From positions 1-17,795 of the forward strand of contig JAUXGM010000029.1 in the NCBI GenBank assembly GCA_030622125.1: a stretch of 17,795 nt of DNA, read 5' to 3'. The position numbers and the translations under genes are program-made. The notes below the pieces were generated by a model. That model was given only the letters and a program-made list of their open reading frames with translations. It was not told where the DNA came from and did no database searches. Positions 12,756 through 17,220 of the stretch are shown here, piece after piece (within the stretch, counting starts at the first letter, position 1; every line of letters begins with the position of its first letter). The DNA is from a bacterium (GTDB lineage Bacteria; AUK180).

Positions 12756-13071
12756 CTTTTGCCTCTTTAAAATATATTATTTGTTCATCCGCCTTTTTAA
12801 AATGAAGCTCTTCCCTGCCAACTTTTTCAATAAGGTAATTAGGGTCCTTTTTCATCTTAATAATTTCTTGTTCTATCTTGAAATTTTCTATCTTTAATTT
12901 TTCAATACCACGATCAAGGGTTTCTATTTGTTTTTTTAATTTTAGATTTTCTTTGATCCCGCCTTCACCATGCCAGTATACAAAAATTAAAAGAATTACA
13001 ATTACTGTAAAGGCTAATGTAACCCAGATAATAGCATTTTCTTTCTTCTTATTTTTTTTAGTTTTTATCAT
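12730..13071 (-). CDS. FtsB/DivIC-like septum formation protein
   Basis: A 113-residue bitopic membrane protein: a Lys-rich cytoplasmic start (1-11), one membrane span (about 13-33), a heptad-like coiled coil (about 38-75), and the family's signature tail [16 protein letters not shown] (76-91) followed by an EQIIYF strand, matching the 'DP..IE..AR..L....GE..' pattern of FtsB/DivIC. These proteins form a complex with FtsL and FtsQ/DivIB at the division site. The gene sits directly after eno; an eno-ftsB neighbourhood is common in bacteria, which supports the call. It overlaps eno by ATGA and the next gene by 26 bases. FtsB versus DivIC naming cannot be settled here. Confidence 0.85.
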
Positions 13072-14336
13072 TTCTTAAAACAATCTATAAATATTGACCC
13101 TTTAAGTTCTTCTTCTATTCTCATCAGCTGATTATATTTTGCGATCCTCTCTCCCCTTGACAGTGAACCCGTTTTTATCTTCCCAAGATTAAAAGCAACC
13201 GTCATATCGGCGATAAAGGTGTCTTCCGTTTCACCGGATCTATGAGAAACAAGCGTTTTATAACCATTGTTTCGTGCAAGTTCAATCGTTTCAATTGTTT
13301 CCGTCAATGTGCCGATCTGATTTAATTTTATCAAAACCGAGTTTGCAACACCCTCGTCTATTCCTTTTTGAACTCTTTTCTTGTTTGTAACGAATATATC
13401 ATCACCAATAAGTTCTATCTTACTGCCTAATACCTTTGTCAGCTCTTTCCAACCTTCCCAATCATCCTCTGCAAGACCATCTTCAATTACCACAATTGCG
13501 AATTTTTTTGTGATATTCTCATAAAATTTTATCATTTCCTTTGCACTATGCTCTTTTCCCTCAAATTTATATCTTTTCTTCTTTTCATCATAAAATTCCG
13601 ATGCAGCAACATCAAGACCGATACTAATTTGAGTTCCAGGTGTATAACCTGCTTTTTCAATTGCCTCAGTGATAAATTTCAACGCTTCAACATTACTTGC
13701 CAAATTCGGAGCAAAACCTCCTTCGTCTCCAACTGAAACCGATAATTTTTTTGATTTTAATATCTCTTTCAGGTTATGAAATGTCTCACTTGCAGCTCTG
13801 TATGCCTCTTTAAATGTCTCAAAACCATGCGGGGCAATCATAAATTCCTGAATATCTACGACCCAATTAGCATGCCTACCGCCATTTAATATATTCATCA
13901 TTGGAACGGGAATAATCCTCGGCATAACCCCGCCAAGATATTTGTATAACGGTAATTCATAAAAATTCGCAGCGGTTCGAGCACAGGCAAGGGAGACACC
14001 AAGTATTGCATTTGCTCCCAATTTTGATTTATTTTCCGTGCCGTCAATCTCTAACATCTTTTTATCAATTGCCAACTGATCAGTAACATCAGTGCCGATA
14101 ATTGCGGGAGCAATAATATCATTTACATTAGCTATCGCTTTTTGAACGCCTTTACCAAGAAATCTATTCTTGTCTCCATCTCTCAATTCAAGTGCTTCGT
14201 GTATTCCGGTAGATGCCCCCGACGGGACCTCTGCTCTTCCTCTAACACCCGATTCAAGAATTATATCGACCTCAATTGTCGGATTTCCTCTTGAATCCAA
14301 TATTTCTCTTGCATGAATATCATCAATATGTTTCAC
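13068..14336 (-). CDS. eno: Enolase
   Basis: Full-length enolase (about 422 residues), converting 2-phosphoglycerate to phosphoenolpyruvate in glycolysis; in many bacteria it also joins the RNA degradosome. I favour the GTG at 14336 as start: GGAGG lies five bases upstream, and the resulting [19 protein letters not shown] aligns without an offset with known enolase N-termini. An ATG 12 bases earlier (14348) is the alternative. Numbered from GTG, visible sites are SGAST (39-43), H155, E205 (GDEGGFAP), metal ligands D242, E285 and D312, K337 (KLNQIGT), H365-S366 (SHRSGETED) and K387. The loop normally reading HADNNVDIQEF is [11 protein letters not shown] here. It overlaps the DeoC-fusion gene by 14 bases and the ftsB-like gene by four. 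Confidence 0.96.
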
Positions 14337-15609
14337 TACTTCCTCCATTTAAACCTTTAACTATTTTTATTCCTGCCGATGCACCAATTCTTGTTGCACC
14401 TTTTTCTATCATCTTAATAACGGTTTCATAATCTCTGATCCCGCCGGCAGCTTTTACTTCCATATCGCTACCAACCGTCTGCTTCATCAAGTAAACATCA
14501 TCAAGGGTAGCACCACCTTTTGAGAAACCGGTGGATGTTTTAACAAAATGAGCCTTTGCATTTCTGGAAAGAAGGCATGCTTTTACTTTTTCTTCATCCG
14601 TTAACAGGCAGGTCTCAATGATTACCTTTACCGTTTTACCCTGTGCCGCTTCTACAACCGCCTTGATATCATCCTCTACGACCTGGTAGTTGCCTGCTTT
14701 AAGTTCACCAATGTTAATTACCATATCAATTTCATCTGTGCCATCCTCTATTGCTCTTTTGGTCTCATACGCTTTAACTTCTTTCGGCATCGTTCCAAGT
14801 GGAAATCCAACAACAGTGGCAATGAGAACATCAGAGCCCTTTAAATTATCACTTGCTCTTTTTGTCCAGTAAGAATTAACGCATACCGCTTTGAAATGGT
14901 ATTCTTTCGCTTCATTACATATCTTATCTATTTCTTTGTCCGTGGCTTCGGGTTTCAAATAGGTATGATCTATGTATTTTGCAACATCAATTTCAGTCTC
15001 ATTTTTGGATTCGGTTTTGACTTCATTTTCAACCGCACTCTTTGCTTCACACTCAACTTTACCTTCTACTTCAGTCTCAATGTGAATCTCTTTATCACTG
15101 TATCCCATGATTCCAAGCCTTATCTCAAATTCTTTTTGGGACATAAGTTCAACACCCACGGATTTTAATCCATTTTTAAGTTCAATAACTTCTTTTATCA
15201 TTTTACTGCCGTCGTAAACATCATCCTTGAATGTTGAAATTACGGGTATTTTTTGATTTATTGCTTCAATAATAATTTTAACATAGTTCTTCGATGAATC
15301 GAAATTAACGATCTCTTTCCCCTCAAATATATCAATACTTGGTAAAATAACCTCTTTAATGTCAATCAATAATTGCTTCGGTGGGAAAAAATCTTTATTA
15401 TAGATGATCTTGTCAGCCCATTTGCTGATACTTGGAGAAGCAATAGTGTCATAATTATAGATTACAATTACTTTTTTCCCCTTATTGTAATGGGCATAAA
15501 CCAATTTTTGAAAATCGGTAAGATCATAAGAACTATTTTTAATTATGATCACGCTCATTTTTTCGGATCTTGACGGATCACTATCCGACGATCTATTCCA
15601 GTCATTCAT
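14323..15609 (-). CDS. deoC: Deoxyribose-phosphate aldolase with a ~200-residue N-terminal extra domain
   Basis: A 428-residue protein whose C-terminal half (about 208-418) is a complete DeoC aldolase, which cleaves deoxyribose 5-phosphate to glyceraldehyde 3-phosphate and acetaldehyde. Seen sites are IDHTYLKP (213-220), D295 in EIDMVINIG, the Schiff-base Lys K357 in VKTSTGFS, and K386 in VKAAGGI. DeoC alone is usually 210-260 residues. The extra part begins with a Ser/Asp-rich tail (1-18), then an alpha/beta region (about 18-168), then an acidic Glu/Lys/Val linker (about 172-207). The region [13 protein letters not shown]...[13 protein letters not shown] (86-125) loosely resembles the flavoprotein-like proteins of bacterial microcompartment loci; this is a weak, by-eye likeness. 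AGGAG six bases upstream supports the start, so the fusion is translated as one chain. It follows rny by 12 bases. Confidence 0.88.
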
Positions 15610-15621
15610 AATTCACTCCTT

Positions 15622-17220
15622 TTATTTTGCAATTCCAGTTACCCTTACTTCTCTCACCACTATTACCTTTATTGTACCGGGGTATTTGCCTTCATCCTCT
15701 ATTTTTTTTGTGATATTTCTTGAAAGAATTGCCGCTTCGTCATCACTGATCTCCTGACTATTTACAATAACTCGTAATTCCCTTCCTGCCTGTATGGCGA
15801 ACGATTTTTCAACACCTATGAAGGAATTTGCAATTGCTTCAAGGGTATTAATTCGTTTTATATAAAATTCATAAGTCTCTCTTCTCGCACCCGGACGAGA
15901 AGCGGAAATAGCATCAGCTACCTGAACAATTACCGCTTCTGTCGATTCAAACGGAACATCATGATGATGGGCTAATATAGCATTTACAATAATAGGATTC
16001 TCGCCATATCTCTTTGCAATATCAGCTCCAAGTTGTTGGTGATTGCCCTCCTGTTCCCTGTCTATGGCTTTGCCGATGTCATGAAGTAAACCGGCTCTCA
16101 CTGCATTGCTCGGTGACATTCCAAGTTCCTTTGCAATATATCTTGATATATAAGCAACTTCCTTTGAATGGTGAAGTCCATTTTGCCCATAAGATGTTCT
16201 GAATTTTAGTTTTCCGATCAATTTAACCAATTCGGGGTGAATATCGTTAAATCCGAATTCATAAACCGTTTCTTCCCCTGTTTTTATTATTTCTTCATTT
16301 ACATCTTTTTTTACTTTTTCAGCGATCTCTTCTATCCTCTTTGGATGGATCCTGCCGTCTGCAATTAATTTTTTTAGAACACGGCTTGCTATTTCCCTTC
16401 GGACGGGTAAAAAAGAGGAAACCGTTACCACCTCGGGTGTATCATCAATGATAAGATCAACACCAAGTAGATTTTCAAATGTTCTGATATTCCTACCTTC
16501 CCTTCCTATAAGCCGACCTTTCATCTCATCGTTGGGTAATTCCACCGATGAAATAGTGTTTTCACAGATATAATCAACAGCAAGCTTTTCAATTGACGAA
16601 GAAACAATGTCTATTGCCTTTAATTTTGCTTCTTTCTCATAATTCTCCTCAAATTTTTGTAATTTTGAGGCAAAGTCATATTGTGCTTCTTTCTCCATAA
16701 GTTCAATTAGTTGTGCCTTTGCATCATCTGCCGAAAGATTGGCAATTCCTTCAAGGGATCTTATCTCGGCGGCTTCCGCTTCATTAAGTTCAGCTTGCCT
16801 TTCTTTCAATGCTTCTTGTGATGCTTTCAGTCGGCGTTCCTTATCTTTTATATCAAGGATCCTTTTTTCTATGACATTGCTTTTCTTGTTCAGGTTATCC
16901 TCTTTCTGAATGACCCGTTTTTCTAAATTATTCAGCTCATTTCTTTTTTGAGAAGTTCCCCTTTCAAATTTTTCTCTTTCTTCAACCATCCTTGTTTTGA
17001 CTTGGATACTCGATTGCTTTACTGTTTCAAGTTTGATCCTTTCCGCTTCTTTTTTTGCGTTATTTATGATTTCTTCCGCTTTAGAATTAGTATTTTCAAT
17101 GATCAACTTGTTTTCATTGGACTTACCCAGTATTTTTTTCGTTTGAAGTTTTTTCCCGATAAAAAAAGCCGTTACACCAATAATTATCATTACAATAATT
17201 GCAATTATATAAATAATCAT
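15622..17220 (-). CDS. rny: Ribonuclease Y
   Basis: A 532-residue RNase Y of normal length and order: a membrane anchor (about 2-22), a long charged coiled coil (about 40-210), a KH RNA-binding domain with GRLIGREGRNIR (235-246), and an HD phosphohydrolase domain with the metal-binding H380-D381 (LLHDIGKA), plus H350/H351 (LHHSKEV), the HHHD cluster (418-421) and D436 in VADAIS. It is a membrane-bound endoribonuclease that starts mRNA turnover. GGAGG lies just upstream of the ATG. A 6S-like RNA gene precedes it on the same strand, an arrangement (6S RNA then rny) I recall from other bacteria. Enolase, a known degradosome partner of RNase Y in Firmicutes, is encoded two genes downstream. Confidence 0.97.
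   Translation of the reverse strand: MIIYIIAIIVMIIIGVTAFFIGKKLQTKKILGKSNENKLIIENTNSKAEEIINNAKKEAERIKLETVKQSSIQVKTRMVEEREKFERGTSQKRNELNNLEKRVIQKEDNLNKKSNVIEKRILDIKDKERRLKASQEALKERQAELNEAEAAEIRSLEGIANLSADDAKAQLIELMEKEAQYDFASKLQKFEENYEKEAKLKAIDIVSSSIEKLAVDYICENTISSVELPNDEMKGRLIGREGRNIRTFENLLGVDLIIDDTPEVVTVSSFLPVRREIASRVLKKLIADGRIHPKRIEEIAEKVKKDVNEEIIKTGEETVYEFGFNDIHPELVKLIGKLKFRTSYGQNGLHHSKEVAYISRYIAKELGMSPSNAVRAGLLHDIGKAIDREQEGNHQQLGADIAKRYGENPIIVNAILAHHHDVPFESTEAVIVQVADAISASRPGARRETYEFYIKRINTLEAIANSFIGVEKSFAIQAGRELRVIVNSQEISDDEAAILSRNITKKIEDEGKYPGTIKVIVVREVRVTGIAK

Follow-up and report, generated by a model that had tools for sequence, protein, structure and literature searches.

A DeoC aldolase fused to a degenerate flavoprotein domain between rny and eno, a possible displaced aldolase of an SPU-type microcompartment

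The window, by which we mean the whole 17,795-nucleotide stretch of contig JAUXGM010000029.1 that was analysed, carries at 13068..17220 a tight block of rny, deoC and eno that is kept in four related genomes. The deoC gene of this block encodes a fusion protein of 428 residues, in which 207 extra residues precede the aldolase, in line with the roughly 200 given in a preliminary description of this DNA. The features of the block are as follows.

15622..17220, minus strand: rny (RNase Y), the upstream operon neighbour (open reading frame; order kept in L113, L114 and L115)
15616..15620, minus strand: Shine-Dalgarno sequence AGGAG of the fused gene, overlapping the rny 3′ end (from the sequence)
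14323..15609, minus strand: fused gene, degenerate BMC-type flavoprotein domain plus DeoC aldolase, 428 aa (open reading frame; fusion also in L085–L089)
15559..15609, minus strand: residues 1–17, Ser/Asp-rich disordered tail without an encapsulation helix (low pLDDT; no amphipathic motif)
15109..15558, minus strand: residues 18–167, flavoprotein domain of the HFCD/UbiX fold with eroded FMN motifs (hhalign, PDB fold matches, motif columns)
14989..15108, minus strand: residues 168–207, acidic disordered linker (pLDDT <50 over 168–205; start scan; sequence)
14323..14988, minus strand: residues 208–428 and stop codon, TIM barrel of DeoC, deoxyribose-phosphate aldolase (TIGR00126, PDB, phmmer)
14539..14541, minus strand: Lys357 of KTSTGF, invariant in all fused homologues
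14452..14454, minus strand: Lys386 in VKAAGG, invariant, equal to K184 of BH1352 by the numbering offset read from 6d33/6msw
14326..14328, minus strand: C-terminal Tyr428, invariant in the alignments
13068..14348, minus strand: eno (enolase), its first 26 nt shared with the deoC end (open reading frame; conserved order)

A clean ribosome site, AGGAG, lies upstream of the ATG of the fused gene and inside the rny end, as the preliminary description had claimed, and a scan of the 35 codons ahead of the DeoC core of the window gene found no start codon preceded by a ribosome site. The AF2 model of the protein comprises a disordered tail (residues 1–15), an alpha/beta domain (about 19–165), a disordered linker (168–205) and then the TIM barrel, which bears out the disordered Ser/Asp start, alpha/beta region and acidic linker that had been read from the letters. 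In some bacteria RNase Y and enolase work together in the degradosome, so the rny-deoC-eno block may link the regulation of deoxyribose salvage to that of nucleic acid turnover.

The fusion was found as a single open frame without stops in five other assemblies (G001–G005, with the genes on L085–L089), among which G001–G004 belong to the family of the window (f1) and G005 (L089) to a second family in the class. Since the fusion recurs in separate assemblies, an assembly join or frameshift artefact was ruled out, and the earlier view that the frame is not misjoined stands. The fused gene sits between rny and eno in all four family members, the wider order rny-deoC-eno-divIC holds in the three of them in which it was checked, and in G005 rny lies directly upstream of the fusion. 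In profile searches over 386 genomes, relatives of the N-terminal domain turned up in 23; of these relatives, 13 are fused to DeoC, nine stand alone (222–295 residues) and one is CoaBC; the queries themselves contained G000–G005 and G275, and the independent finds are six fused proteins, the nine stand-alone proteins and CoaBC. The same DeoC fusion occurs inside SPU-type microcompartment (BMC) loci of other phyla, so that the proposed search for it in other genomes succeeded both within the class and beyond, and seven of the nine stand-alone flavoprotein genes adjoin AldDH, PduL or BMC-H genes.

The aldolase half is intact, as had been stated: the NCBIfam model deoC (TIGR00126) matches residues 209–417 with 285.6 bits against an equivalog cut-off of 117.3, phmmer gives an E value of 9e-81, and the nearest solved structures are DERA (8qps, Z 36.9; 5dbu, 63% identity). 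Lys357, the expected Schiff-base lysine, Lys386, the second catalytic lysine of DERA, and Tyr428 are invariant across the aligned fusions, and the catalytic lysines and the C-terminal tyrosine are accordingly present. In a family-by-family search (PF01791), the fusion was the sole PF01791 protein found in G000–G004 and the sole DeoC found in the window's genome, which is 96% complete. As a separate observation, many SPU-type DeoC proteins (L024, L089, L070, L073, L060, L027, L083 and others) repeat their own C-terminal phosphate-binding motif ahead of the barrel, for example AGVGRIGASFGIKV versus GATRVGASASIAIV, often behind a cysteine cluster (CSSCGKC, CGGCGLC); this is lost in the window's family.

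Residues 1–207 returned nothing credible from Pfam or NCBIfam, and the window protein did not match PF02441 even at E 10, thus staying below its gathering score. Profile–profile comparisons by hhalign, made without the intermediate L089, nevertheless joined three groups: the five f1 N-terminal domains (window and G001–G004) matched nine stand-alone BMC flavoproteins at 94.7% and E 5.7e-8, the f1 domains matched ten distant DeoC-fused N-terminal domains at E 1.9e-10, and the latter matched the stand-alone flavoproteins at E 1.2e-26. Three of the seven stand-alone proteins scanned (L145, L147 and L148) pass the PF02441 Flavoprotein cut-off, which the related domain in L070 also reaches. The structures listed by VIA-align for the whole 428-residue protein were almost all DeoC and say nothing of the N-terminal domain, which was therefore folded and searched alone (25 sequences; pLDDT 88, pTM 0.82). 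The first 37 PDB entries matched by this model all have the HFCD/UbiX fold (Z 15.8 to 13.4; next fold Z 9.6) and consist of FMN-dependent cysteine decarboxylases, PPC decarboxylases, CoaBC, UbiX, DmrB and dipicolinate synthase B, with only FMN-dependent decarboxylases and prenyltransferases at the top, and Foldseek agrees on the fold. A PDB sequence search with the f1 N-terminal profile gave only ribosomal S4, as chance matches. These results firmly identify the N-terminal domain as a divergent flavoprotein domain (PF02441, HFCD/UbiX fold) and kin of BMC-locus flavoproteins, and the profile matches indicate that it descends from the flavoprotein of many BMC loci. The profile search and structure prediction that had been suggested for the extra residues thus gave a definite fold, and the loose likeness to microcompartment flavoproteins noticed at first is upheld by the profile comparison, the fold and the fusions inside SPU-type loci.

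The FMN-site motif (glycine loop, PxLSxNxAAK...D) is not preserved in the five f1 proteins. According to the motif columns, the glycine loop after strand 1, the Asn and Lys of PxLSxNxAAK and the following Asp are replaced or missing in all five, as is a loop of 10–15 residues in the f1 domains; several stand-alone members retain all of these elements. With the flavin motifs gone, flavin chemistry by the window copy is unlikely, and the f1 domain has probably lost flavin binding. That the domain is still a working flavoprotein, for instance an electron carrier from DeoC/AldDH to PduS that was fused for proximity, would fit its FMN-enzyme fold, the PF02441 score of the related L070 domain and the electron-shuttle role suggested for BMC flavoproteins by Axen et al. 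(PMC4207490), but is highly improbable given the replaced or deleted residues in the window's family. The N-terminal domain is nevertheless under strong purifying selection and as constrained as the catalytic core: in one closely related congeneric pair, G001 and G004, taken from outside the window's own genus, omega was 0.09 for the domain, 0.087 for the DeoC core and 0.32 for the linker. The constraint, persisting though the motifs are lost, therefore serves something other than those motifs. Other fused DeoC proteins have an amphipathic encapsulation helix at their start (MEIENLVERITREVMASL in L060, for instance), and AldDH and PduL of the window's genome carry one as well, but none was found at the N terminus of the window protein.

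No shell genes lie in the window, as had been noted, and the recommended search of the rest of the genome for BMC shell proteins found them on contig 82 (L090). The confirmed families on this contig are arranged in the order PduL, BMC-H, BMC-P, AldDH, PduS, a 122-aa ORF, BMC-T, RpiB and BMC-P, so that shell genes (PF00936 and PF03319) and AldDH, PduL and PduS share one locus. The SPU microcompartment is defined by DeoC and RpiB with AldDH (PMC4207490, PMC8217296), and these papers also agree with the preliminary description in treating DeoC as an enzyme of sugar-phosphate microcompartments. DeoC (PF01791) and RpiB (PF02502) are both present in the window's genome; DeoC is absent from the contig 82 locus, and the only one found in the genome is the window fusion. 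Contig 82 is hence an SPU gene set minus its aldolase. The endomicrobial locus L070 (PduL, BMC-H, EutN, AldDH, PduS, BMC-T, RpiB, RpiB, EutN, then a fused DeoC) has the same gene order, except that contig 82 ends without DeoC. A locus of the contig 82 type was found in six class relatives, complete or partly sequenced (that of G006 on a short contig), with DeoC in none of the six. A search of G000–G004 for a separate BMC flavoprotein yielded only CoaBC. Since pyrimidine and purine nucleoside phosphorylases occur in all seven genomes, the substrate of the aldolase could derive from nucleosides.

Several further observations concern these BMC genes. The 122-aa ORF (L090:10155-10523, minus strand), which separates PduS from BMC-T in the window's genome alone, looks like an insertion into the BMC operon and by eye resembles a four-helix-bundle protein of the 23S rRNA intervening-sequence type. 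In G001–G004 (L109:8215-9090, minus strand, in G001; G002:C348; G003:C13; G004:C15), one ORF of some 290 aa encodes three BMC domains (PF00936) in tandem; it sits upstream of gmk and coaBC and was not found in the window's genome. Known BMC-T shell proteins have two domains, and a three-domain chain would form a pseudohexamer from two chains; a literature text search found no paper on such a three-domain protein. A link to encapsulins was also considered, as DeoC adjoins archaeal A-domain encapsulins (PMC8346489), but was set aside, the window's class having BMC shell genes.

In the free DeoC tree, the f1 cores group with plain DeoC, outside the SPU-type group, and the stem branch of the N-terminal domain is very long (2.33 changes per column). 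One clade of f1 and L089 was rejected by neither half (p-AU 0.353 for the core, 0.281 for the N-terminal domain), nor was one clade of f1 and all SPU-type cores, a test that included L067, a close sister of L047, and L037 (p-AU 0.309); all fused DeoC as one clade was borderline (p-AU 0.063). In G001–G004, an in-frame ATG with AGGAG upstream lies 6–14 codons before the aldolase core (approximately L085:2002, L086:2083, L087:1491, and L088:1993 and 1999), and the window genome is without it. An in-frame ATG with such a ribosome site is rare inside other genes (0.4–0.6% per 15 codons), but the four genomes are related by descent, the site had been noticed before it was tested, and redrawing synonymous codons alone under fixed amino-acid sequences gives an internal ATG and site in 26–46% of draws. 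The internal ATG may function as the start of a free DeoC or be left over from a gene that once stood alone. These data bear on the proposal that the fusion arose separately in the window's family, by joining of a flavoprotein gene to an ordinary deoC and apart from the SPU-locus fusions of other phyla. The separation of f1 from the remaining fusions in the free tree, the borderline one-clade test and the ribosome site and ATG right before the core in L085–L088, as expected of a once separate deoC, all speak for it; the f1–L089 clade that neither half rejects, and the L089 fusion lying likewise directly downstream of rny, speak against it, and on balance we regard a separate origin as possible though somewhat unlikely.

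At their C-terminal end, the stand-alone BMC flavoproteins have a module of some 50 residues (vITxxDv...iiTPLArDlAxxxgI). Its model matches the C-terminal extension of RpiB in the window's genome and its relatives (six RpiB among 810 ORFs, E 2.9e-9 to 1.8e-5); in the RpiB of L090:8918-9532 (minus strand), the module spans residues 158–204. In the window's class the flavoprotein is thus split, with its flavin-fold half on DeoC and its C-terminal half on RpiB. As the module also occurs at the N terminus of an L155 protein, presumably EutT-like, and in a 99-aa L144 protein that bears an encapsulation-type helix, the module may serve BMC interactions in general.

Taken together, the reading that we favour, with somewhat better than even confidence, is that the fusion is the displaced signature aldolase of an SPU BMC, in which the one-time flavin domain has been turned to assembly or docking; both the encapsulation of the aldolase and the docking role we infer. 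Nucleoside phosphorylases would yield deoxyribose phosphate, and the fused DeoC would split this sugar phosphate and release toxic acetaldehyde, which the BMC AldDH and PduL would carry inside the shell to acetyl-CoA and then to acetyl-phosphate. The aldolase would work with the contig 82 enzymes inside the shell, and the N-terminal domain would be a protein–protein module that ties it into the enzyme core by docking or cross-linking. As HFCD/UbiX proteins usually form trimers or larger assemblies and DERA forms dimers or tetramers, the fusion is expected to be multivalent and could build an extended enzyme core, and PDB titles among the fold matches of the N-terminal domain include dodecamers and a cubic cage. 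All this is compatible with the targeting, scaffolding or regulating role first proposed for the extra domain. The aldolase-less contig 82 locus and the fusion as the only PF01791 protein in G000–G004 count for the displaced-aldolase reading. Against it count the missing encapsulation helix, present on AldDH and PduL in these genomes, the location of the gene in the housekeeping operon rny-deoC-eno-divIC and not in the BMC locus, the placement of the f1 cores near plain DeoC in the free tree (even if a common clade with the SPU-type cores is not rejected) and the failure of the window protein to reach PF02441.

The same points could mean that the aldolase has left the microcompartment and is a cytosolic salvage enzyme, with the N-terminal domain a remnant that only stabilises or regulates DeoC. 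The lack of a helix, the place between rny and eno, the long stem branch and the nearness of the core to plain DeoC would suit such an enzyme, as would a general salvage duty, which the fusion must also perform as the sole DeoC of its genome. Yet every complete relative keeps the BMC locus with no other aldolase, and the N-terminal domain is constrained like the catalytic core and folds with high confidence, which makes a purely cytosolic enzyme unlikely. The displaced SPU aldolase may be carried further. A trimer-forming pseudo-flavoprotein would replace the encapsulation peptide and cross-link the aldolase, its C-terminal module would sit on RpiB, and the internal start of the sister genera would add free aldolase, giving a long/short pair like that of CcmM but arrived at independently in a catabolic microcompartment; this full version is unlikely.

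If the favoured reading holds, the fusion would provide the aldolase that the SPU organelle of a sparsely sampled class of bacteria otherwise lacks, and a BMC signature enzyme could be encoded at a distance from its locus and have no encapsulation peptide. A BMC-locus flavoprotein appears to have been repeatedly fused to, or split among, sugar-phosphate enzymes, and a catalytic fold that is constrained despite the loss of its flavin-motif residues points to an assembly role for BMC flavoproteins. No description of a DeoC–flavoprotein fusion was found in the literature searched, which is not proof of absence; in this limited sense, relative to that literature, an SPU aldolase that is displaced, has no helix and is joined to a pseudo-flavoprotein appears to be a new element.

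Among known systems, the SPU BMC (Axen et al. 2014, PMC4207490; Sutter et al. 2021, PMC8217296) shares a DeoC-type aldolase, RpiB, AldDH, PduL, PduS and shell proteins with the window's genome. A DeoC–RpiB fusion is mentioned for it; it differs here that the aldolase is encoded in a housekeeping operon and not in the locus, that DeoC carries a flavoprotein domain, which the searched text of the two papers does not mention for DeoC, and that RpiB bears the flavoprotein C-terminal module. The HO-type BMC (PMC8217296) likewise has a remote DeoC with an N-terminal extension away from the shell locus, but that extension is EP-like, whereas the window's is a full folded domain without an encapsulation-peptide helix. 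The BMC-locus flavoproteins, for example that of GRM3 (PF02441; PMC4207490, PMC6384099), have a homologous domain of the same fold; the window's differs in being fused to DeoC and in lacking the flavin-motif residues, the encapsulation helix and the C-terminal TPLA module. CcmM of beta-carboxysomes (PMC8580825) is not homologous, its scaffold carries Rubisco small-subunit-like modules where here the cargo enzyme itself is fused, and the window gene has no internal start. The likeness is one of working principle: the N-terminal domain of CcmM, an enzyme fold without its former active-site motifs, has turned into a trimeric scaffold for the core, and a short form is made from an internal ribosome site, as suggested for the four relatives of the window.
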